Source of the DNA: Thermoleptolyngbya sichuanensis A183
GTDB taxonomy: Bacteria; Cyanobacteriota; Cyanobacteriia; Elainellales; Elainellaceae
Assembly (NCBI RefSeq): GCF_013177315.1
Contig: NZ_CP053661.1
Location: 1,736,001-1,800,000 of the forward strand
DNA: 64,000 bases
Reading direction: 5' to 3'
Part shown: positions 25,564-51,589 of the stretch, one piece after another
How the letters are laid out: each line of letters begins with the position of its first letter
How positions within the stretch are numbered: position 1 is the first letter of the stretch
The notes under the pieces: generated by a model
Database searches by the model: none
Seen by the model: only the letters and a program-made list of their open reading frames with translations
What the model was told of the DNA's origin: nothing
Program-made: the position numbers and the translations under genes

Positions 25564-26151
25564 ATGCCGTCGGGCCGTACACACGATCGCATTACCCTCT
25601 GGACCCTGCCTGTGGTGGGCGGGCTGGCGCTGGGGCTGACGCGCAGCAGCAGCCTGACGCTGATTTTGTGTGCGGGTTTTTTGGCAGGCGGGCTGCTGTT
25701 TGGGCCCGATTTGGATATTCACTCGGTACAGTTCAAGCGGTGGGGCTGGTTTCGGTGGATTTGGATTCCCTACCGGGGCAGCCTAAAGCATCGCTCGCCC
25801 CTCTCGCACGCGCCCATCACTGGAACCGTAGTGCGGATTCTGTATCTACTGGCATGGGTAGGAGCGGCCAGCTTTTTCGGACTAGCGCTGCTGAATCAAA
25901 TCTGGCAGCTTGGCTGGACGTGGGGCGACATTGGTGGCGTGATGGGGCGATCGCTCCAAACACACGCCTGGGCCTGGCTGACGTTTTGCGGCGGGCTGGA
26001 GTTGGGAGCGCTGAGCCACTACGCCGCCGACTATTTCGTGTCCAGCAGCAAGCGGTTCAAGACGCAGGGCTGGCGGGCGTTTTTGCCCAAGACACCGAAA
26101 TCTAAGAAATCGAAACAACGTACGACTCGTTCCCGAAAACGGCGATCCTGA
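25564..26151 (+). CDS. DUF2227 putative metal-binding membrane protein
   Basis: This 195-residue protein belongs to the cyanobacterial 'uncharacterized metal-binding protein' family (COG2389/DUF2227). Conserved-looking motifs are PSGRTHDRIT at the N-terminus, FGPDLDIHS (residues about 46-55), the basic PYRGSLKHRSPLSH stretch and LGALSHYAADYFVSS. These are rich in His and Asp suited to metal binding. Three hydrophobic spans are visible (about 14-44, 88-108, 133-152). The C-terminus is a Lys/Arg-rich tail. Its role is unknown. Confidence 0.8.
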   Translation: MPSGRTHDRITLWTLPVVGGLALGLTRSSSLTLILCAGFLAGGLLFGPDLDIHSVQFKRWGWFRWIWIPYRGSLKHRSPLSHAPITGTVVRILYLLAWVGAASFFGLALLNQIWQLGWTWGDIGGVMGRSLQTHAWAWLTFCGGLELGALSHYAADYFVSSSKRFKTQGWRAFLPKTPKSKKSKQRTTRSRKRRS

Positions 26152-26153
26152 GG

Positions 26154-26213
26154 TTATGGCTTTGTCCAGCTTATGGCTTTGTCAGCTTATGGCTTTGCCA
26201 GCTTATGGCTTTG
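26154..26213. repeat. Tandem copies of the glycosyltransferase gene end, with stop codon
   Basis: TTATGGCTTTG occurs at 26154, 26171, 26187 and 26203. The copy at 26203 begins with the stop codon of the minus-strand glycosyltransferase gene and encodes its last residues. The other three extend downstream of it. Confidence 0.88.
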
Positions 26214-27375
26214 CCCGGAGCAGCTTGCGATAAGCCGCCACATGTAGGTGAGCAGAGCGCTCCCAGGTATAGTGCTGGAGAATGGGCTGACTGGCCTGGA
26301 CGAGGCGCTGAGCAACGGCGGGTTGGCTGAGTTCTAGCATCCCCTGGGCGATCGCCCCCACATCCTCTGGGTCAACCAGCACCGCCTGTCCGGTGGTGAG
26401 AAATTCGGTAAAGGGCGGACGGTTTGCCGTGAGGACGGGCAGCCCAGCGGCGATCGCCTCCAGCACGACTAAACCCCAACCTTCTTTGGTGGAAGGAAAC
26501 ACAAACGCATTGGCGCTGCGGTAGAGGGCGGGTAGGTCTGCATCTGAAACCACACCGGGCAAGACGAGCGATCGCCCAATTTCGATTTCCAACGCCTGCA
26601 CCCGCGCAAAGAACTCATCTCGATAGGACTGATAGTCAAACAGTGTCGCACCGCCCGCAATCACGAGTTGCGCTTGGGGCTGATCAGATAAAACCTGAGC
26701 AAAGGCCTTGAGTAAGAGAATAGAATTCTTGCGGGGTTCGATGCCGCCGACGGTTAGGTAGATGGGGGAGCCGTATAGCCCAAAGGTTTGCTGGATCTGA
26801 GCTTGGCGAACCGTGGAAACGGGAGAAAAGCGATCGCCCTTCACGCCATTGATCACGCGATCGGGACGGATCTGATACTGTTGCTGAACCGCTTGCTGCC
26901 AATGCTGGCTGACGCAGAGACACAGATCAGGACGGTCAATGGAGCGATCCTGACATTCCCGCAGGTATGGACTGTTGTATGCCTCGACATGGTGAACAGT
27001 TCGCACGACGGAGGGAATCTTGCTCTGATCTCGCAGGAGAATGAGCGCATTTGCAGTGATGCAGTCCTGGGCGTGATAGATGTCATACGAACCATCCTGA
27101 AGAGGGTCATTGTCCAAAAAAATCACAACTTCTTGAATGCGCTGGCGAATTAAGTAATCCACGCCTCCTTGCACAGGCAGAGCAGGAATCAGATGATATG
27201 AACAGGATAGATCTCGACCAAACCCTTGACCCTCTTTATCCAGCGCGTAGACACAGACGATATGCCCCTGCTGATGCAGCGCCTCTGCCAGTTCCAGCGT
27301 GTGGATAACGCTGCCTCTGGGGCGAGTGGAATAGGTGAACAGGGCAATTCGCAGGGGGCGATCGGGGTGAATCAT
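26203..27375 (-). CDS. GT4-family glycosyltransferase of the Nit1C cluster (MSMEG_0565 type)
   Basis: This 390-residue glycosyltransferase has a GT-B fold. An N-terminal Rossmann half (RIALFTYSTRPRGSVIHTLELAEAL) and a C-terminal GT4 half carry VGGIEPRKN, PGVVSDADLPALYRSA and FPSTKEGWGLVVLEAIAAGLPV (the nucleotide-sugar EX7E-type region). It corresponds to the MSMEG_0565 family that accompanies Nit1C nitrilase clusters. The start ATG 27375 overlaps the upstream gene's stop as ATGA, indicating translational coupling. The open frame extends 38 codons upstream, but those codons lie inside the neighbour. Donor and acceptor are unknown. Confidence 0.85.
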   Translation of the reverse strand: MIHPDRPLRIALFTYSTRPRGSVIHTLELAEALHQQGHIVCVYALDKEGQGFGRDLSCSYHLIPALPVQGGVDYLIRQRIQEVVIFLDNDPLQDGSYDIYHAQDCITANALILLRDQSKIPSVVRTVHHVEAYNSPYLRECQDRSIDRPDLCLCVSQHWQQAVQQQYQIRPDRVINGVKGDRFSPVSTVRQAQIQQTFGLYGSPIYLTVGGIEPRKNSILLLKAFAQVLSDQPQAQLVIAGGATLFDYQSYRDEFFARVQALEIEIGRSLVLPGVVSDADLPALYRSANAFVFPSTKEGWGLVVLEAIAAGLPVLTANRPPFTEFLTTGQAVLVDPEDVGAIAQGMLELSQPAVAQRLVQASQPILQHYTWERSAHLHVAAYRKLLRAKP

Positions 27376-28352
27376 GGAGGCGAGAATCCGGTGAGGGGCT
27401 GCTGGGCAAAATCCCAGAAAGTAACGGATTCTCCCTGAGAACGCAGAACGAGTTGCGTCATGGGCTGAATTTCGCCAATGATTTGACACGCTAGATGGCG
27501 ATCGCCAAACTGCCGCTGCACGGTTTCGACTTGCTCCGGCCGCACGCTGAGTAAGAATCCGTAGCTAGGAAAGCACGTCAGCCACCAGTCCAGCGCAATG
27601 TTACGCGGCGGCACAATGGCATCCAGGTCGATTGCCGCGCCGCAGCCGGAGGTTTCCAGCAGCATTAGCGCAGTGCCGATCACGCCGCCGTTGCTGATGT
27701 CTTTGGCCGTGTCGCAGAGGCCCGCTTCGGCAAGCTGGGGCAGCAGTTCCAGATCGGCGCGGAGGCGGGCGGGGTCGGCATCGGTGCTGGCGTTCCAGAA
27801 GGGATGGCGGGGATGGGCTTTGCCGCGCTGATCCACGACCATCAAGAGGCGATCGCCCGGTGTTGCCGAAAAGCTGGTTAGCAGGGCGTGCGATCGCCCC
27901 AAAATCGCCACGCCTAGCGCGTTGTAAACACTGTGGCAGTTGGTGTGCCCGCCGACGATGGGAACCTGATACGCGGCGGCGGCCGCCTTCATGCCGTCGA
28001 TCAGCGGCTGGCTGCGCTCGGCAGACTGGCTCCAGAGCATGTCCACCACGGCGATCGGGCGGCCGCCCATTGAGTACACATCGCTGACGTTTACCATAAC
28101 CGCAGACCAGCCCGCAAACCAGGGGTCGTTTTCCACGAAAAACGGCATCATGCCCTCTGCCGCGAGCAGCAGATAGCCGTCGCCATCGGGAATGGCGGCG
28201 CAGTCGTCACCCAGGAGAATATGGGGCGCATCCAGACGAAACGAATGGGCGATCGCCTGGATGTCTTGCTTGTGCAAAATGCCCAGGGATTCTCTCAGCT
28301 TTTTCACTCGCGTTTGAAACTGTCCTGTTGGGAACTGTCCTGCCTCGCTCAC
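27372..28352 (-). CDS. AIR-synthase-like protein (Sll0787 family)
   Basis: This is a 326-residue member of the PurM/AIR-synthase-related superfamily, the ATP-binding fold shared with SelD, HypE and ThiL. It matches the Nit1C-associated Sll0787 family by position and content. The Asp-rich ATP/Mg segment LGDDCAAIPDGDGYLL (about 48-63) is present, followed by NVSDVYSMGG (about 87-96) and the C-terminal DISNGGVIGT, both PurM-like. Its substrate is unknown. It lies 4 bp after the GNAT gene and overlaps the glycosyltransferase start, so it is tightly coupled in the operon. Confidence 0.85.
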   Translation of the reverse strand: MSEAGQFPTGQFQTRVKKLRESLGILHKQDIQAIAHSFRLDAPHILLGDDCAAIPDGDGYLLLAAEGMMPFFVENDPWFAGWSAVMVNVSDVYSMGGRPIAVVDMLWSQSAERSQPLIDGMKAAAAAYQVPIVGGHTNCHSVYNALGVAILGRSHALLTSFSATPGDRLLMVVDQRGKAHPRHPFWNASTDADPARLRADLELLPQLAEAGLCDTAKDISNGGVIGTALMLLETSGCGAAIDLDAIVPPRNIALDWWLTCFPSYGFLLSVRPEQVETVQRQFGDRHLACQIIGEIQPMTQLVLRSQGESVTFWDFAQQPLTGFSPP

Positions 28353-28356
28353 GCGC

Positions 28357-28884
28357 CTAGCTCGCCCGCTCGTACTGCACCGTGCTGTAGAGATTGTAGG
28401 GCATTGCAGGCCGCACCTCGGTTCCGGCCGGGTAATGGTGCAAATCAGCCTCCATGAGATGATGGGGGCGATCGCACAGGGTCAGTTCCTCCAGGGTTTT
28501 CCAGTGCAACCGCTGAAAGAAGCGCACGTTTTGCAGTTGCACCGTCGCCAAAAACCGTTGGCAGCCCCAAGTGTTGGCGGTGGTGACAGCTTTGTAAATC
28601 AGCCCTTTGCCAATCTGCCAGCCGCGCCGATAGTCGGGATGTGTGCCCAGTCGTCCGCCATACCACAGCCCCGGTTCGGGTTCGTAGATGCGGACAATGC
28701 CGACGACCTGATCCGTTTCATTTTCAATCGCAATGATGGGATAGGCGATATTGTCAATACTATCTACGTCGCTATCTTGAAACAAGCCCTGCTCTGTGCA
28801 AAAGATCATGCGGCGCAGGTTGAAATATTCGTTCACTTCCTGGGGCGATCGCGCCAGTTCAAAGTGATATCGCTTACCGTCCAT
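28357..28884 (-). CDS. GNAT N-acetyltransferase (MSMEG_0567/Sll0786 type)
   Basis: This 175-residue GNAT-fold protein has FNLRRMIFCTEQGLF at residues about 21-35, the central strand VVGIVRIYEPEPG, and a GGRLGTHPDYRRGWQIGKGL stretch that corresponds to the acetyl-CoA pyrophosphate loop. The family is induced on nitrogen starvation in Synechocystis (Sll0786, from the established cluster description). The acceptor is unknown. It is separated from the radical SAM gene by 123 bp that contain tandem repeats, and from the AIR-synthase-like gene by 4 bp. Confidence 0.85.
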   Translation of the reverse strand: MDGKRYHFELARSPQEVNEYFNLRRMIFCTEQGLFQDSDVDSIDNIAYPIIAIENETDQVVGIVRIYEPEPGLWYGGRLGTHPDYRRGWQIGKGLIYKAVTTANTWGCQRFLATVQLQNVRFFQRLHWKTLEELTLCDRPHHLMEADLHHYPAGTEVRPAMPYNLYSTVQYERAS

Positions 28885-28903
28885 ACTGCGTTCCTGGAGA
28901 TGT

Positions 28904-28947
28904 GATTTTGGGTTTTGGATTTTGGGTTTTGGGTTTTGGATGTTGGG
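28904..28947. repeat. TTTTGGG-rich tandem repeat
   Basis: GATTTTGGGTTTTGGATTTTGGGTTTTGGG and similar units fill the gap between the GNAT and radical SAM genes, next to the stop-codon array at 28972-29020. Confidence 0.8.
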
Positions 28948-28971
28948 CGTCGTTTGATGTGTGAGTGCTGT

Positions 28972-29020
28972 TTACTCGAAGGGGGTTACTCGACGGTGAA
29001 CAGGTGGTTACTCGAAGGTG
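28972..29020. repeat. Tandem copies of the radical SAM gene end, with stop codon
   Basis: TTACTCGAAGG and near-copies occur at 28972, 28986 and 29008. The copy at 29008 contains the stop codon (29008-29010) and last codons of the minus-strand radical SAM gene. The others repeat it downstream. Confidence 0.88.
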
Positions 29021-30093
29021 GACAGTGCTGAGCAAGCGCCACACTTTCCACATCCGGCCTTCATGTCGCGGGAGGACAATCCGGCTTGCCGCAGCAGTGC
29101 GCCGACCTGCTGATAGACTGCCATCATGAATTCGCTGCTCGGTGCAGGATGTTGGGCCAGCGGCGTTCCGGTAATCGGCACAAACGGCACAACGAACGGA
29201 TATACGCCAAGCTGAATAAGGCGATCGCACCCCTGCACCAACGCTTCTACGGTGTCGCCCAGTCCTGCCAGCAGATAGGTGCTGACCTGCCCTCGACCAA
29301 ACACCTGAATCGCTGCTTCAAACGCCCGGAAGTAATAGTCCACGGGCACGTCTGCTTTTCCGGGCATAATGCGGGCGCGAACCTCCGGCGTAATCGCCTC
29401 CAGGTGCATTCCCAGGCTGTCTACGCCCGCTGCGTGCAGCTTGGCAAACCAGGCAAAGTCGTCTGGCGGTTCGCACTGGGCTTGAATCGGCAAATCCACC
29501 CGCTGCTTTACCGCCCGCGCACACTCTGCCAGGTACGCCGCGCCGCGATCGCCCGTGTTGGGGGTTCCCGTTGTCATCACCATGTGCTTTACGCTATCCA
29601 ACTGCACGGCCGCTTCGGCCACTTCAGCAAGCTGGGCGGGCGTTTTGCGGGCGATGGTGCGGCCAGCCTCTAGCGACTTTTCAATGGCGCAAAACTGGCA
29701 AACGGTGGAGTCGTCTCGATAGCGGCGACAGGTTTGCAGCACCGTCGTCGCCAACACGTCGTGACTGTGCAGCAAGGCAATTTTCCAGTAGGGAATGCCG
29801 TCGGCGGTGGATAGCCCATAAAACTTGGGCTGTTGGGGAAAATGCAGCGGGGCGATCGCCTCGCCATCCACGCGCAGCAGGGGCAAGTCGGCGGGGTCGT
29901 CCAGAGACACAGAGAAGGGCGATCGCGCCGCCGTGTCCGTAAACACAGGCACCATTACGGTCGTGCCGTCCACCGTCACCGCCTTGTGATCCGACGGGCC
30001 CGCGCCGCCCCTGCGCCCCGATGCCCCCACGCGGTCTTCAACCAGCTTCAGACCCTGAGACTGAAGCGCCGTAATCAACTGCTGTTTGTTCAT
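29008..30093 (-). CDS. Radical SAM protein of the Nit1C cluster (MSMEG_0568 type)
   Basis: This 361-residue enzyme matches the biotin-synthase-like MSMEG_0568/Sll0785 family. The expected cluster cysteines are spaced C-X9-C-X2-C (Cys122, Cys132, Cys135) rather than the canonical CX3CX2C. The C-terminus adds a CX2CX2C motif (348, 351, 354) that may bind an auxiliary iron-sulfur cluster. The TIM-barrel segment ([40 protein letters not shown]) is intact. ATG 30093 with AGGA upstream is preferred over a longer in-frame extension. It overlaps the nitrilase gene by 56 bp in another frame. Reaction unknown. Confidence 0.85.
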
Positions 30094-31099
30094 GAATCCT
30101 ATGGTTCGTCGTGAAAGAGCCAGCCTCAGCAGACAGCAGATCGGGCAGCGCCGATGCCGCGCCGTGATTATCCTGCATGACTGACCAGGCGCTGGCGTTG
30201 AGATGGAGCCGCAACAGGTCGGGGCGAGCATAATGGCCCACCGAGTCCATCATTCGCTTGCGCTTGGTGATGAGGGAGAAGTCTAAATCGGCGATCGCCA
30301 TTCCTTCGCCTTCGGTAATTGGCGGGCACAGCGGTACACCTTCGGGACTGATAATTGCCGTGTAGCAGCCGCCCATCAGCACCTTTTGCAGCTTTTCGTC
30401 GGGCGTGATTTGGGCGATTTGCTCCGGCGACAGCCAGCCCGTTGCGTTCACCACAAAGCAGCCCGCCTCCAGCGCATGGTGGCGAATCGTGACCTCCATC
30501 TGCTCAGCAAAGAGCTGCCCCACCATCGAGCCGGGAAACTGGGCACAGTGGATCTGCTCGTGCTGCGCCATCAGAGCATACCGCGCCAGGGGATTGTAAT
30601 GCTCCCAGCAGGCCAGCGCCCCTAGGCGACCCACTGCCGTCTCTAGCACGGTCAGCCCTGCGCCGTCGCCCTGCCCCCACACCATCCGCTCGTGATAGGT
30701 CGGCGTAATCTTGCGCCGCTTCAGCAGCAAGGTTCCGTCTGCATCAAACACCAACTGTGTGTTGTACAGCGAACCGCCGTCGCGCTCGTTGACCCCCAGC
30801 ACCACCACGATGCCGTAGGAGCGGGCAGCCCGACTAACGGCATCCGTGACTGGGCCGGGCACGAGGACTGCCTCTTCGTATAGCCGCATGTGTTCCTTGC
30901 CCATCAGTACGGGCGGCTGCACAAAGGAAAAGTAGGGGTAATACGGAACGAAGGTTTCAGGAAAAACAACCAGTTGGGCCCCCGCCTGAGCGGCCTGGGC
31001 GATCGCCTGCAACACCTTCTCGGTTGTGCCTTCCCGACTGAATAAAACCGGACTGATTTGAACCGCTGCCGCTCGAACCGTGCGGGAATATTCCATCAC
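30038..31099 (-). CDS. Nit6803-type nitrilase
   Basis: This 353-residue carbon-nitrogen hydrolase has the nitrilase catalytic residues Glu48 (FPETF), Lys130 (KRRKITPT) and Cys164 (ACWEHYNP). They are spaced as in the characterised Synechocystis Nit6803 (Glu53, Lys135, Cys169, known from the literature). It should hydrolyse nitriles to acids and ammonia, giving a nitrogen-scavenging role. The start is GTG 31099 or ATG 31096 behind a GAGG site. Its 3' end runs 56 bp into the next gene. It lies 459 bp downstream of the Sll0783 homologue, in the same orientation. Confidence 0.92.
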
Positions 31100-31558
31100 T
31101 GTTCACCTCGTTTAATTGCTGCAAGAAGGCAGGAGCGCTGCACAATACTCAATCAGCGCTACGGAACGTCCCACATGGAAACCCGGCGCACCTAGGCAAT
31201 GCTCTGCGCCGCTTCTGAAACCGATCGGCAAACCCTGCTGCGGACGGCGTGGGTGCAAACTCAAACTCCAGGCAGGGACTCCAGGCAAGGAATCGCCCGC
31301 AAAAAACTAGGAGCATCCGGGCGATCGCCCCCCTCACCCATCCACAGCCGAAAGCTGCCGGAAGATGAAACGCCGCCTTGAGGGCGATCGCCCCAAAGCA
31401 GCCATTCTGGTTCCCGCTTGCCCCCCTTTGAGAAGAGGGAACCAGAAAGCTTGAAGAAGTCTGCGGAAGCTTAGAGGTCAGGCGTTAGACAGCGGGCGAC
31501 CTTAAGTTACCCAATCCGACCCGGCCCCTTAACCTCTGATGCTGAATCCTCCCGAAAC
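31100..31558. other. Gap between the Sll0783 homologue and nitrilase genes
   Basis: 459 bp, unusually long for an operon. It has a stem-loop (31405-31447, 11-bp arms TTCTGGTTCCC/GGGAACCAGAA) and no recognisable gene. The stem-loop could be a processing site or a repeat-family remnant. The MSMEG_0570-type small gene found in some Nit1C clusters is not here. Confidence 0.5.
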
Positions 31559-32041
31559 CTAGAGCGTCCAGGTGTCCAGAATAAACGCGCCGTCCTTGCG
31601 GTGCAGCAAGATCAAGTCCAGCACGTCGAGCGGGCTGATGGGGCGAATGCCGGGAATCAGCGACGGCTCGCCGTGTCCGTAGAGCGCCTGGAGGGCAAAG
31701 CGGCAGGCGTAGACTTTACCGCCTTCGGCCATAAACTTGCTGAGCTGGTTGTTGAAATTTTGATGACCAGGAAACGCTTCATCGCCAATCTTGGGAAAGC
31801 CGCGCTGTATGCCCAGCGTTACGCCCGGCCCATAGAGCAGCACGGAGGTTTCAAACCCTTTCCGCAATAGCCGCAGCGCTTGCAGCAGGTTCACCAAGCC
31901 AATCGAGCCTTCAAAGGCGACCGTGTGGAAGGTGATGAGCGCTTTCTCCCCCGGATCAGCCTTGACATCGGGAAATACTTTTTCCTCAAAATCAACAAAA
32001 TAGTCCCCCGGCTGATGGGCAGGTGTTGTCACTTCGGGCAT
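31559..32041 (-). CDS. Sll0783/MSMEG_0572-type nitrogen-starvation protein
   Basis: This 160-residue soluble protein has a DsrE-like alpha/beta fold. [26 protein letters not shown] forms the first strand and helix. [14 protein letters not shown] and [16 protein letters not shown] hold the later strands; the cysteine in YACRF is the only cysteine. It is the homologue of Synechocystis Sll0783, described as strongly induced in nitrogen starvation and linked to polyhydroxybutyrate accumulation. It follows the NtcA-type promoter by 330 nt and has a strong TAAGGAGG Shine-Dalgarno. Its biochemical activity is unknown. Confidence 0.9.
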
Positions 32042-32054
32042 ACGTTCCTCCTTA

Positions 32055-32104
32055 GAAAACGGTGAAAGACTGAAAACGGTGAAAGCTTAACGGTGAAAGC
32101 TTGA
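32055..32104. repeat. Tandem array in the Nit1C leader
   Basis: GAAAACGGTGAAAG, AAAACGGTGAAAGCTT and AACGGTGAAAGCTT follow one another just upstream of the Sll0783 homologue's ribosome-binding site. Confidence 0.8.
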
Positions 32105-32378
32105 CAATGACTGACGATGCTCGTGTGCGGCGCAACTTGAGATGTGTGGGAGAGGGGTGTGACGCAATCTACAATCCTCAAATGCTCATGAATGCTCAGG
32201 TGACGCTCAGGTAAAGTCTGGGACGCAGTTGAATGACCCGTTGCAGCGCAGAAAAACGATGCAGGAAAAACCATGAAGAATCCATACTCGCCGGATGCAC
32301 AGGAACCCAATGGCGATCACCCCACAGTTGAGCAATGGACTCAGAGCCTTGCTAACACAACCGGGCACTTGACTTGCA

Positions 32379-32421
32379 ACGTTACGAGGTTTCGGCGAGG
32401 ATAGTTTGTATCTCTTCATAC
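32379..32421 (-). promoter_or_regulatory. NtcA-activated promoter
   Basis: GTATGAAGAGATAC (32408-32421, read on the minus strand) is a perfect GTA-N8-TAC NtcA site, within a longer TTTGTA..TACAAA palindrome. After 23 bp comes TAACGT (32384-32379), which fits the TAN3T -10 box. This is the classic spacing of an NtcA class II promoter. It points to the Sll0783 homologue and the genes behind it. Confidence 0.82.
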
Positions 32422-32571
32422 AAAGCATCCAGGACTATCCATACAGGTAGCACAGAAAATTTTACTACCAGACTTTATTTCTTTTTTCACCAGCACCTAT
32501 CGATTTAGATAGGTGAGTTAGACAGGTGAGCAGGAATGCAGAGCCTCCTCCCTGCTCCTAAATTTAGGAGC

Positions 32572-33876
32572 TTATGAGCCAAAGGCGGCCACGTTCATAT
32601 AGCTGGGGGGACTGGCTTGCGTCATCTTGTAGCGAGAGAGAATGTGTTCTGCCAGATATTGGGCATCGCGGGCTATGCCAGAAAAGCGCCCCGACCCCCA
32701 GGTATAGAGCCACGGCAGCCCCAGAAAATATAGCCCCCGCGCTCCCGGGACGATGCCCCGCTCGTGCCCCGGATAGCCCTTACCGTCGAAGATGGGAATC
32801 TCGATCCACCTAAAGTCGGAGAGGTAGCCCGTACACCAGATGACGGACGTGATGTTTGCGGCTTCCAAATCGAGGGTCAGCGGTTCATCGCTGGGTTCCC
32901 AGACGGGGCGAAAGGGCGGATCAACGGGAGCGTCGATGCCGTTTTTCTCAATGTAGCCGTCGATGGTTTTCTTGATGCTTTCGGCAACTTCGTCGGCGTA
33001 ATCCAGATTTTGCTTGAGGTCGTCCCAGAAATAGAGCAGGCGATTTTCCTGCGGAAACGTTTCGCGAGCGCCCACCTGCTTAAGCCGCCCGTGTAGCCGC
33101 ATTCCTTCTAGGGCAAACTGGCGCAGGTCGATTTCACGACCGCCGTCGCGCCCGGTGACATAGTGGTTTGCCTTATGGCGCACGGCTTCTTTTTGCGGGT
33201 GCTGATCGACGGGCAGGTCGTAGTAGCCCATTTCGTGCAGCCACTCCACCACATCTTTGCCGCGATAGCGACGGGGCGATCGCGGCGCACCGCCCACGCA
33301 GAGGTGTACCTGCCGCCCTGCTAGGTGCAGGTCTTCGGCAATCTGGCAGCCAGACTGGCCCGTGCCCACCACCAGCACCGCGCCGTTGGGCAGTTGTTCT
33401 GGGTTGCGATATTGCGACGAATGCAGTTGTTGAATCGAGGCAGGGAGTTGCTGGGCGATCGCCGGAATTTTGGGCCGATGATATCCCCCCGTGGCCACGA
33501 CGACCTGATCGGCGGTGTAGTCGCCGCTGGTGGTGCTAATCGAGAAGCGATCGCCCTCTTTTCGCAGGTGGCGCACCTCGATGCCTTCCAGTACAGGCGG
33601 ATCAAACGCGGCGGCGTAGGCTTCGATGTATTGCACAATCTCGTCTTTGACCATGAAGCCGTTGGGGTCGTCGCCCGCGTAGGGAAACCCCGGTAGCTGA
33701 CACTGCCAGTTGGGCGTAACCAGGCAAAACGAATCCCAGCGATATTCCCGCCAGGAATGGCCGATTTTGTGCTTTTCAAAGACGAGATGGGCGATGCCCC
33801 GCTGCTTTAGGCAATAGCTCATGGACAATCCAGCCTGGCCGCCCCCCACCACAATGACGGGATAGTGCTGTTCCAA
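32572..33876 (-). CDS. Flavin-dependent oxidoreductase (MSMEG_0569 type)
   Basis: This 434-residue flavoprotein monooxygenase-like enzyme has an N-terminal FAD site VGGGQAGLSMS (10-20) and a second nucleotide site VGTGQSGCQIAEDL near residue 172. The ATG dinucleotide-binding signature VVVATGGYHRPK lies between them (about 124-135), as in FMO-type enzymes. It belongs to the MSMEG_0569 family that belongs to Nit1C clusters. Its natural substrate is unknown. It lies upstream of the NtcA promoter, so it is probably transcribed from its own promoter and only shares orientation with the rest of the cluster. Confidence 0.87.
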   Translation of the reverse strand: MEQHYPVIVVGGGQAGLSMSYCLKQRGIAHLVFEKHKIGHSWREYRWDSFCLVTPNWQCQLPGFPYAGDDPNGFMVKDEIVQYIEAYAAAFDPPVLEGIEVRHLRKEGDRFSISTTSGDYTADQVVVATGGYHRPKIPAIAQQLPASIQQLHSSQYRNPEQLPNGAVLVVGTGQSGCQIAEDLHLAGRQVHLCVGGAPRSPRRYRGKDVVEWLHEMGYYDLPVDQHPQKEAVRHKANHYVTGRDGGREIDLRQFALEGMRLHGRLKQVGARETFPQENRLLYFWDDLKQNLDYADEVAESIKKTIDGYIEKNGIDAPVDPPFRPVWEPSDEPLTLDLEAANITSVIWCTGYLSDFRWIEIPIFDGKGYPGHERGIVPGARGLYFLGLPWLYTWGSGRFSGIARDAQYLAEHILSRYKMTQASPPSYMNVAAFGS

Positions 33877-34382
33877 AACGTACCTCCGGTTTGCCGAACC
33901 CTGTGATTGAAAGAAACCTGCTGATCGTCAGGTTAGGAGGTTGCAAATAGGAAAAATTGTGCGCTTGGCTACGATGCACCCTAGTCTCACCATAAGGGCA
34001 GGCGGGGTAGAGGGAAGGGCGATCGCCCCCAGTTTTTTCCAGTGCTTTTGAAGATCACCTAACAAAATCAACAGGCATTCTGGCTCTGTTCGCGTTTGTC
34101 CTGCCCCAAAGTCGTTACCTTAATTTAAGGCCCTCCCCCGGTTTGATCCCCGGATCAGACAATGGAAAGATAGCAACGTCCGAAGCCCCCGTCTGACCCT
34201 CAAATTCTTGATGTGTAGCTTTACCTAACTGCCCTCACCCTAAATCCCTTTCCCAAGGCGGGAGAGGAACTTCCGAACCGGACGGCTCCCCTCCTCCCCG
34301 CTTGGAAGAAGGGGCTGGGGGATGAGGGGTTTCTTAGAGCGACACACCGCCTTCACACCAAACTTATTAGGAGTGTTTACCT
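33877..34382. other. Intergenic region between the Nit1C cluster and the proline gene
   Basis: The 506-bp gap between divergent genes has no recognised gene. Its right part, 34228-34330, holds a copy of a dispersed cyanobacterial-type repeat (CCCTCACCCTAAATCCC, then GCGGGAGAGG, and CGCTTGGAAGAAGGGGC, then GATGAGGGG). Confidence 0.55.
34228..34330. repeat. Dispersed intergenic repeat (CCCTCACCCTAAATCCC type)
   Basis: Pyrimidine-rich left arm with purine-rich complement (CCCTCAC at the left pairs with GTGAGGG-like GATGAGGGG at the right). It ends about 50 bp upstream of the proline gene's start. The motif is one commonly seen between cyanobacterial genes (recalled, not searched). Confidence 0.55.
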
Positions 34383-37379
34383 GTGGTAAGCAATATTGCC
34401 CAAACCCAATACGAATCCAAGACCCAGGCGATCGCCCGCCAACTGCTCAGCGCCACGCGGGAAAACCGCTCCTTTTTTGCCCAGATGCGCGACCAGATGA
34501 ACATGAGCGAAAAACTGCTGGGCTGGACGATGGGCAACCCAGGGCTGCGGGTGCAGTTGTTTCACTTCATCGACGCGCTGCCCGCCCTGCAAAGCAAACC
34601 CGAAATTGCCCGCCATCTCCAGGAATATCTCAGCAAGGAAAATGTGGAACTGCCCGCCGCGCTGAAGGGAATGCTGAACTTTGCCAGCCCCGATTCGATG
34701 CCTGGCCAGGTGGCCGCGACGACCGTTTCCACCGCCGTTGAAACCCTTGCCCACAAGTACATTTCTGGCGAAACCATTAAACAGGTGATCAAAACCCTGG
34801 AGCAGCTTCGCAAAGAAAAAATGTGCTTTACCGTAGATCTGCTGGGCGAAGCGGTGATCACGGAGGTCGAAGCGCAATCATACCTCGATCGCTACCTGGA
34901 ACTGATGACGGAACTGGCGGCGGCATCCCAGTCCTGGCCCACGATTCCGCAAATCGACGAAGCCGATGGCGAACCCCTGCCGAAGGTGCAGGTGTCGGTA
35001 AAGCTGACGGCGTTTTATTCGCAGTTTGACCCGCTGGACGCAAAGGGCAGCCAGGAACAGGTGAGCGATCGCGCTCGTATCCTGCTGCGCCGCGCAAAGG
35101 AACTCGGTGCTGCCGTCCATTTCGACATGGAGCAATACGCTTACAAAGACCTGACGATTTCCATCCTCAAGCAAATTTTGATGGAGGAGGAGTTTCGCAG
35201 CCGCAGCGACATCGGCGTGACGCTCCAAGCCTACCTGAAGGACACCGAAGCCGACCTGAAGGGGCTGATTGAGTGGGCGAAAGAACGCGGCACGCCAATC
35301 ACCATCCGCCTGGTGAAAGGGGCCTATTGGGATCAGGAAACTATCAAAGCCGCCCAGCATGGGTGGGATGTGCCCGTGTTTCAGCATAAGGAATCGACCG
35401 ATGCCAACTTCGAGAAACTGACGCGCCTGCTGCTGGAAAATCACGAGTCCCTCTACGCTGCCATCGGGAGCCACAACGTGCGATCGCAGGCCCACGCAAT
35501 GGCGATCGCCCAGGAACTCAACATTCCCCGCCGCCGCATCGAGTTTCAGGTGCTTTACGGCATGGGCGACAAGCTGGCCAAGGCAATGGTGAACCAGGGG
35601 CATCGCGTCCGGGTCTATTGTCCCTACGGCGACCTGATTCCCGGCATGGCCTACCTGATTCGCCGCCTGCTGGAAAATACTGCCAACACCTCCTTCCTGC
35701 GCCAAAACCTGGAGGAGCGCCCGGTGGAGGAGCTATTGGCCATTCCGCAAATGCGAGATCAAAGGGGACAGGAGGCGCATCAGCCCAGCCGCCCACCCAC
35801 CTCCCACGCCTTCGCCAACGCCCCAGATACGGACTTTTCGATTGCCGCAAAGCGCGATCGCGCTCTCGCTGCTATCCAAACCGTGCGTCAGCAGTTGGGG
35901 CAAACCTATCTGCCGCTGGTGAATGGGCAGCGGGTGAATACGCTGGAGGTGATCGAGTCGGTGAACCCGTCAAATCCGTCAGAAGTGGTGGGCAAGGTAG
36001 GGCTGCTGAGCATTGAGCAGGCAGAGGGGGCGATCGCCGCAGCCAAGGCCGCCTTCCCTGCCTGGAAGAATACGCCCGCGACAGAACGCGCCGCCATTCT
36101 CCGCCGTGCCGCAGATCTGATGGAACAGCGCCGCGCCGAACTCTGCGCCTGGATGGTGCTGGAAACGGGCAAGGTGCTGGGCCAGGCAGACCCAGAAGTT
36201 TCGGAGGCGATCGACTTTTGCCGCTACTATGCCGACGAGATGGAGCGGCTAGACGCAGGCGTAAACTTCGACGTGGTGGGCGAAACCAACCGCTACCATT
36301 ACCAGCCACGCGGCATTTCGCTGATCATCTCGCCGTGGAACTTTCCGCTGGCCATTCCCACGGGTATGACGGTTGCCTCCCTCGTCGCGGGCAACTGCAC
36401 ATTGCTCAAGCCTGCGGAAACATCGTCTGTGATTGCGGCCAAGCTAGCGGAAATTTTGATTGAGGCAGGCGTTCCCGCTGGCGTGTTCCAATACATTCCC
36501 AGCAAAGGTTCCACCGTGGGCGCACACTTGGTCAAACATCCCGATGTTCACATGATTACCTTCACGGGTTCCCAAGAAGTGGGCTGTCGCATTTACGCAG
36601 AAGCCGCTATCCTGAAACCAGGCCAGCGCCATCTCAAGCGCGTGGTGGCCGAAATGGGCGGCAAGAATGCGATTATCGTAGACGAAAGCGCTGACCTGGA
36701 TCAGGCTGTGCAGGGCGTGGTCTATTCTGCATTCGGCTATAGCGGTCAGAAGTGTTCCGCCTGCTCTCGCGTCATCGTGCTGGAACCCATCTACGACACG
36801 TTCGTAAACCGACTCATCGAAGCAGCAAAATCATTGCACGTCGGCATCGCAGAATCACCCGACACCAAGGTTGGCCCCGTGATCGACGCGCAGGCCCAAA
36901 ATCGCATCAAAGCCTACATTGAAAAGGGGAAGGAAGAAGCAACCCTGGCGCTGGAAATGCCCGCGCCCGACAATGGCTATTTCGTCGGGCCGACGATCTT
37001 TACCAACGTGTCGCCCAACGCCAAGATTGCCCAGGAGGAAATCTTTGGCCCGGTGCTGGCGGTGATCAAGGCGACGACGTTTGATGAAGCGATGGACATT
37101 GCCAATGGCACGCTCTACGCGCTGACGGGCGGCATCTACTCGCGCACGCCCTCCCACCTCGATCGCGCCAAGGCGGAGTTTGAAGTGGGCAACCTGTACA
37201 TCAATCGCCACATCACGGGGGCAATCGTGGCGCGGCAGCCCTTCGGCGGCTTCAAGCTCTCTGGCGTTGGCTCCAAAGCTGGCGGCCCAGACTACCTGCT
37301 GCAATTCCTAGAGCCACGCCACATCAGCGAGAACATCCAGCGGCAAGGCTTTGCCCCGATCGAGGGTGCAGAACAGTAG
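34383..37379 (+). CDS. putA: Bifunctional proline dehydrogenase / glutamate-semialdehyde dehydrogenase
   Basis: This 998-residue fusion oxidises proline to glutamate in two steps. Residues about 30-470 are the FAD-dependent proline dehydrogenase barrel, with RLVKGAYWDQE and YCPYGDLIPGMAYLIRRLLEN. Residues about 505-990 are the NAD-dependent aldehyde dehydrogenase, with SPWNFPLAIP, the FTGS nucleotide motif and catalytic Cys791 in GQKCSACSR. The proline utilisation DNA-binding (RHH) domain of enterobacterial PutA is absent. The start is GTG with AGGAG 9 nt upstream. It lies next to a nitrogen-starvation cluster, but regulation by nitrogen is not shown here. Confidence 0.93.
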   Translation: MVSNIAQTQYESKTQAIARQLLSATRENRSFFAQMRDQMNMSEKLLGWTMGNPGLRVQLFHFIDALPALQSKPEIARHLQEYLSKENVELPAALKGMLNFASPDSMPGQVAATTVSTAVETLAHKYISGETIKQVIKTLEQLRKEKMCFTVDLLGEAVITEVEAQSYLDRYLELMTELAAASQSWPTIPQIDEADGEPLPKVQVSVKLTAFYSQFDPLDAKGSQEQVSDRARILLRRAKELGAAVHFDMEQYAYKDLTISILKQILMEEEFRSRSDIGVTLQAYLKDTEADLKGLIEWAKERGTPITIRLVKGAYWDQETIKAAQHGWDVPVFQHKESTDANFEKLTRLLLENHESLYAAIGSHNVRSQAHAMAIAQELNIPRRRIEFQVLYGMGDKLAKAMVNQGHRVRVYCPYGDLIPGMAYLIRRLLENTANTSFLRQNLEERPVEELLAIPQMRDQRGQEAHQPSRPPTSHAFANAPDTDFSIAAKRDRALAAIQTVRQQLGQTYLPLVNGQRVNTLEVIESVNPSNPSEVVGKVGLLSIEQAEGAIAAAKAAFPAWKNTPATERAAILRRAADLMEQRRAELCAWMVLETGKVLGQADPEVSEAIDFCRYYADEMERLDAGVNFDVVGETNRYHYQPRGISLIISPWNFPLAIPTGMTVASLVAGNCTLLKPAETSSVIAAKLAEILIEAGVPAGVFQYIPSKGSTVGAHLVKHPDVHMITFTGSQEVGCRIYAEAAILKPGQRHLKRVVAEMGGKNAIIVDESADLDQAVQGVVYSAFGYSGQKCSACSRVIVLEPIYDTFVNRLIEAAKSLHVGIAESPDTKVGPVIDAQAQNRIKAYIEKGKEEATLALEMPAPDNGYFVGPTIFTNVSPNAKIAQEEIFGPVLAVIKATTFDEAMDIANGTLYALTGGIYSRTPSHLDRAKAEFEVGNLYINRHITGAIVARQPFGGFKLSGVGSKAGGPDYLLQFLEPRHISENIQRQGFAPIEGAEQ

Positions 37380-51125: not shown

Positions 51126-51589
51126 CGGTTGAATAACAGTTTCTTGTGCTTGAAGCTCAACGGTTTTGTGGCAGAAAATCAAAGTCAGCTTGATCCTGAG
51201 AATCTCCAGGACAAAACCGAGATCGATAGTGTCACTTTATCGGTTTAGCTAGTTTTGTAATGCCCCATACACGCGGAGAAGCGTGAGGGTTCACAGCCGG
51301 TTTCTTAACCAGTCCTTAAGTCGATCTAGGGGTTGATGTCCTAGATACAGAGAGCATGTCAGCCTTTCAAAACTTGAGCATTGCAGTATTTTCTGGATGT
51401 GCTGAGAATTGAGAACCCCGTCTTAATTGGCAGCAAGACAGGATAGAGTCATCTGTAATCCGCTTGGGTGAAATTACTCAGGAAAACTAATCAATTCCTT
51501 ACATAAGCTCCATAAAAATCTTTTTCCTGATGGAGTTAGGTGATTTTTAAGAATTGGGTGATATTATTGCTGGAAAATTTGCATTACTC

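Follow-up and report, generated by a model that had tools for sequence, protein, structure and literature searches.

Sll0783 is needed for PHB storage, and related gene clusters assimilate cyanide. For proteobacterial Nit1C clusters other nitrogen or cyanide regulators have been reported. In cyanobacteria the cluster has already been described as nitHBCDEFG, and in the same excerpts Nit1C is cited as conferring cyanide or nitrile use in other bacteria (PMC9716671, PMC10119275). The sll0783-ssl1464 operon of Synechocystis PCC 6803 is a homologous gene run. According to the excerpted sources it is induced by nitrogen starvation, with up-regulation of sll0783 (PMC3901256), and ammonium represses it (PMC10094980). 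In the literature searched, which was available in part, we found no description of an NtcA promoter for Nit1C; NtcA control of sll0783 may be in print.

The regulator NtcA responds to 2-oxoglutarate and works with PipX. Its class-II form, as given in the excerpts of PMC3898017, consists of a GTAN8TAC palindrome, centred at about -41.5 relative to the transcription start, and a TAN3T -10 box; a site-to-box distance of 22 nt is reported there for one NtcA promoter, and nirA is named as a canonical NtcA target. GTAN8TAC and the TAN3T box are common to the canonical class-II promoters (nirA, glnA, urtA) and the nitB locus analyzed here. Unlike these, the nitB locus has a long predicted leader, a nitrile/cyanide target and two putative promoters for one cluster.

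The window, a 64,000 nt stretch of the Thermoleptolyngbya sichuanensis A183 genome, contained homologues of nitH, nitB, nitC, nitD, nitE and nitF together, all above the NCBIfam cut-offs and all on the minus strand. The run begins with nitH (32572–33876), a flavin-dependent oxidoreductase of the MSMEG_0569 family (TIGR04046, 676 bits, cut-off 498). It is followed by nitB (31559–32041), encoding the nitrogen starvation response protein of the Sll0783/MSMEG_0572 family (TIGR04044, 285 bits, cut-off 110), and nitC (30038–31099), a Nit6803-family nitrilase (TIGR04048, 586 bits, cut-off 503). The radical SAM protein of the MSMEG_0568 family, nitD (29008–30231; TIGR04043, 597 bits, cut-off 304), overlapped nitC as listed; its family match begins at residue 55, and the start given for the ORF is probably too far upstream. 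Further downstream are nitE (28357–28884), a GNAT acetyltransferase of the Sll0786 family (TIGR04045, 225 bits, cut-off 68), and nitF (27372–28352), an AIR-synthase-like protein of the Sll0787 family (TIGR04049, 466 bits, cut-off 321). The last gene encodes an MSMEG_0565-family glycosyltransferase (26203–27489; TIGR04047, 495 bits, cut-off 260). The five genes predicted to follow the Sll0783 homologue were thus all present and above their cut-offs.

In proteobacterial Nit1C clusters the order from nitB to nitF was the same, as far as the loci cover these genes. There, nitH was located at the far end of the cluster where it was covered, whereas in the window it adjoins nitB upstream. The Sll0783 protein of the window was 82–90% identical to those of non-cyanobacterial loci (L012, L030, L033 and others), and for GNAT acetyltransferase and glycosyltransferase of these clusters the identity to the window's proteins was only about 36–53%. 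The high identity of the first gene product could reflect either strong constraint or transfer. Across the phylum the module was patchy: the Sll0783 family was matched in 26 of 291 genomes (21 over the cut-off), and within the window's own family in 28 of 36 genomes (25 over the cut-off).

The putative NtcA-type site before nitB is the extended palindrome TTTGTATGAAGAGATACAAA at 32405–32424 on the minus strand, a perfect TTTGTA-N8-TACAAA and the single match without mismatch to this pattern in the window. Its core GTA-N8-TAC, GTATGAAGAGATAC (32421–32408), is likewise perfect. The -10 box TAACGT (TAN3T; 32379–32384, minus strand) lies 23 bp downstream of the palindrome, and the element is orientated toward nitB with its start codon at 32041. 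Coordinates and spacing given in the original prediction were read correctly from the sequence. A transcription start 6–7 nt past the -10 box would centre the palindrome about 42 bp upstream.

The original prediction had assigned this promoter to the Sll0783 homologue and five downstream genes of the Nit1C cluster, which agrees with our analysis; what had been missed is that nitH, which directly precedes the reported promoter in the same orientation, has an NtcA-type promoter of its own. Here, the site GTAGCCAAGCGCAC (33959–33972, minus strand), a GTAN8CAC with one mismatch, is followed after 23 bp by the -10 box TAACCT (TAN3T; 33930–33935, minus strand). Since nitH and nitB each have their own site, the cluster appears to comprise two units of NtcA type, namely nitH and nitB-nitCDEF-glycosyltransferase.

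The original prediction proposed a search for the same site before Sll0783 homologues in other cyanobacteria. We analyzed the best 80 of 561 confirmed Sll0783-homologue loci, 47 cyanobacterial and 33 other, labelled by record titles so that mislabelled MAGs are possible. A site was counted when it lay within 600 nt upstream, deviated in no more than one of the six core letters and was followed by a TAN3T box at 22 or 23 nt. Such a site was present before nitB in 40 of 48 cyanobacterial loci, the window included, and was perfect in 32; shuffled sequences gave 3.3 (0.20 perfect). By the same definition it was found in none of the 33 non-cyanobacterial loci. Upstream of three later genes in the cyanobacterial clusters it was nearly absent (radical SAM gene 1/46, GNAT gene 1/42, AIR-synthase-like gene 0/36), and none of these matches was perfect. 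Orientation was examined in those 36 cyanobacterial loci where nitH is not divergent: sites pointed toward the gene in 28 and away from it in 2, and reversed letters gave 9. For perfect sites the respective numbers were 23, 0 and 0.

Upstream of nitH the site was present in all 33 cyanobacterial loci, window included, in which the nitH start was covered (L005 and L037, where it was not, are left out), and this applied to collinear and divergent arrangements. In the shuffle test, in which L037 was also let in, 34 of 34 loci carried the site (28 perfect) versus 3.0 (0.15 perfect) in shuffles. None of 26 non-cyanobacterial loci had a site before nitH. Where nitH is divergent, two back-to-back sites lie between the genes.

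A match before nitC was found in 11 of 48 cyanobacterial loci, perfect in seven. A separate nitC promoter was rejected: eight of the 11, including all seven perfect ones, are the nitB promoter itself, which lies less than 600 nt from nitC in tight clusters. The remaining three (L026, L028, L032) are one-mismatch matches located inside or after nitB.

Two additional genome searches yielded 46 usable loci. Removal of 13 near-duplicates of the first set, one being the window itself, left 33, among which three pairs are still 74–81% alike over part of the region. Loci L113, L116 and L117 (gene start not covered) and L162–L166 (family matches below the cut-off) had been dropped before counting. In this set the nitB site was present in 23 of 33 loci (17 perfect), against 1.4 (0.03 perfect) in shuffles. 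Nine of the ten misses were all nine loci of one small-genome family; the tenth (L161) combines a stop codon within the gene with a perfect GTAN8TAC that has no TAN3T box.

The eight of 48 loci without a nitB site fall into different types. A perfect GTAN8TAC without TAN3T box was present in L002 and L024, and nothing was found in L011. In the other five (L026, L028, L032, L034, L038) nitH is located 61–189 nt upstream of nitB and has kept its own site. This has the appearance of a take-over, as if the nitH promoter served both nitH and nitB.

The small-genome family (f19; L152–L160) was given a brief look. The canonical site was absent between the divergent nitH and nitB, and two GTN10AC elements were present instead. 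One of them, GTAN8CAC, was found in 8 of 9 loci at 120–142 nt from nitB. The second was found in all nine at 64–75 nt from nitB, which is the position of the class-II site in many other cyanobacteria.

For scoring, 56 of 71 sites in other genomes, with the window excluded, were used to build a model from sequence alone (R1); the 15 omitted sites were mostly closely similar to ones that were kept. As core and box were the criteria by which its training sites had been selected, their invariance in R1 is built in. This fault does not affect the shuffles, the orientation control or the comparison with non-cyanobacterial loci. With filters off, R1 scored the nitH promoter highest in the window, at 15.2 bits (E 0.0021), and the reported nitB promoter second, at 12.7 bits (E 0.012); the next match had 6.7 bits. 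Throughout the 5.5 Mb genome the top match lay before nirA, encoding ferredoxin-nitrite reductase, and the nitH promoter was fourth of the 8 matches listed. The nitB site was absent among these 8, of which the weakest had 13.3 bits (150 of 337 candidates scored). Behind matches 2 and 3 no recognised gene was seen by inspection.

The conservation in cyanobacteria, the absence from the non-cyanobacterial clusters examined, the presence of an NtcA gene and the nirA match all argue for the class-II reading of the original prediction. We consider it very probable, as judged from sequence, that NtcA activates nitB and the following genes through a class-II promoter formed by this element, and that nitH is driven by a sister promoter. 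The sequence, its spacing and conservation, the absence from non-cyanobacterial loci and the NtcA gene are computed results, from which we infer binding, start site, induction and read-through as follows. Nitrogen shortage would raise 2-oxoglutarate, upon which NtcA, together with PipX, would bind the palindrome, whose centre is about 42 bp before the predicted start, and bring RNA polymerase to the TAN3T box in the absence of a -35 box. From nitB, transcription would then run through a gap of 459 nt into nitC, nitD, nitE, nitF and the glycosyltransferase gene. Just upstream, the second class-II promoter with its one-mismatch site would drive nitH.

The motif in isolation proves little. Bare GTAN8TAC occurred six times in the window versus 2.6 expected, a number reached by 6 of 100 shuffles. 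For TTTGTA-N8-TACAAA with at most two mismatches, five matches were found versus 0.93 expected, and none of 100 shuffles reached five. The composite of GTAN8TAC, 23 nt and TAN3T with at most one mismatch was present three times versus 1.8 expected (25 of 100 shuffles reach three), and two of the three are the two Nit1C promoters. The third, at 51228–51270 on the minus strand, was taken as a chance match, as no minus-strand ORF of at least 100 aa is located shortly downstream; the nearest minus-strand ORFs overlap a plus-strand ABC-type ATPase gene. Genome-wide, the composite without mismatch (22 or 23 nt) was not enriched, with 24 matches versus 30 for the reversed control. Taken alone, the motif is therefore not above chance, and motif statistics were rejected as a proof in themselves because the genome-wide count stays below that of the control. 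What is above chance is the place, orientation and conservation of the site. By our own arithmetic, 24 matches on two strands of 5.5 Mb correspond to about 0.001 expected per 530-bp intergenic region in one direction.

These counts would suit a reading in which palindrome and box before nitB have come together by chance and nitB is transcribed from nitH or from another promoter, all the more as nitH, preceding nitB in the same orientation, has an NtcA-type promoter of its own. Against this, the site recurs in 40 of 48 cyanobacterial loci and is missing from 33 of 33 non-cyanobacterial ones, the orientation control favours sites toward the gene, and a simple consensus scan of the minus strand from 26000 to 34400 gave no sigma-70-type promoter. 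We regard such a coincidence as very improbable. An equally slight probability is given to the reading that the palindrome is real and is recognised by another CRP/FNR-family regulator instead of NtcA. Regulators of this fold bind related palindromes, and seven further matches to the NtcA model were found in the genome. These, however, all scored far below the cut-off, and a single protein passed it, at 387.5 bits (cut-off 245). This NtcA is a close match to solved NtcA chains, and a stretch of 22 residues, which we take to be the DNA-reading helix region, is identical in chain 8h3v. Moreover, the top genome match of the model trained on Nit1C sites precedes nirA, and GTAN8TAC with a TAN3T box is the NtcA class-II form in the published excerpts (PMC3898017).

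Very unlikely as well, in our view, is that the palindrome is real but control is exerted by the long leader as a riboswitch, attenuator or leader peptide, with NtcA being secondary. If the start is assumed 6 nt after the -10 box, the predicted untranslated leader comprises 331 nt (32042–32372, minus strand), which agrees well with the 330 nt proposed originally. The expected tandem array near its end was found as well: a 14-nt tandem repeat at 32075–32102 (minus strand), one of many short tandem repeats in the window. Direct reading showed a partial third copy and the Shine-Dalgarno sequence AAGGAGG between repeat and ATG. The length is indeed unusual, as over 74 loci (near-duplicates included, and L107 being the window itself) the median leader was 52.5 nt and only five exceeded 331 nt. 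However, the leader matched no Rfam family, folded more weakly than 97 of 100 shuffled sequences (z +1.85), hence not unusually, and had no meaningful similarity to other leaders of more than 100 nt. Near relatives with the same promoter also differ in leader length (59 nt in L019, 285 nt in L021). As structure, Rfam family and conservation were all lacking, a role as riboregulator was rejected, and we read the 331-nt leader as a putative expanded spacer.

Returning to NtcA-activated promoters before nitB and nitH, a more general picture appears rather probable, although with clearly less confidence than the assignment of the single element. According to it, cyanobacterial Nit1C is wired to NtcA at two fixed points, nitH and nitB, and the pair persists when nitH is flipped. 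The inner promoter would have been lost in one set of lineages, with the nitH promoter taking over, and the sites would have relaxed to GTN10AC in one small-genome, possibly picocyanobacterial, family. If true, cyanobacterial Nit1C would be a standard nitrogen-starvation set wherever it is present and not a cyanide-induced detoxification set. Irrespective of this general picture, the sites link a poorly understood cluster by sequence to the master regulator of nitrogen in the majority of cyanobacterial loci examined, and they place one gene module behind a putative control site that is missing from its non-cyanobacterial homologues. The NtcA-type units also tell which genes should move together, and the second putative promoter would explain how nitH is able to switch position and strand. 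The nitrogen-starvation induction of sll0783 has already been published; if anything is new, it is most probably the two-promoter architecture.

The gap between nitB and nitC (31100–31558) is, with 459 nt, the second longest among 47 cyanobacterial loci measured; in 13 of these it was below 20 nt. A terminator-like hairpin is located inside the gap at 31402–31372, and the nine such hairpins found here are no excess over the 8.3 expected by chance. Divergent from nitH, and with a common upstream region, lies a gene for a PutA-type proline dehydrogenase/glutamate semialdehyde dehydrogenase (34383–37379, plus strand). An Rfam match to mir-2114 at 34230–34330 was far under the gathering score and was taken as chance.

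In the same genome, outside the window, NtcA-like composites were also present before genes for a response regulator (L120), an NCS2 nucleobase permease (L123) and an agmatinase-family hydrolase (L125), and before nirA (L167). The agmatinase-family protein is possibly a guanidine hydrolase, which is a guess.
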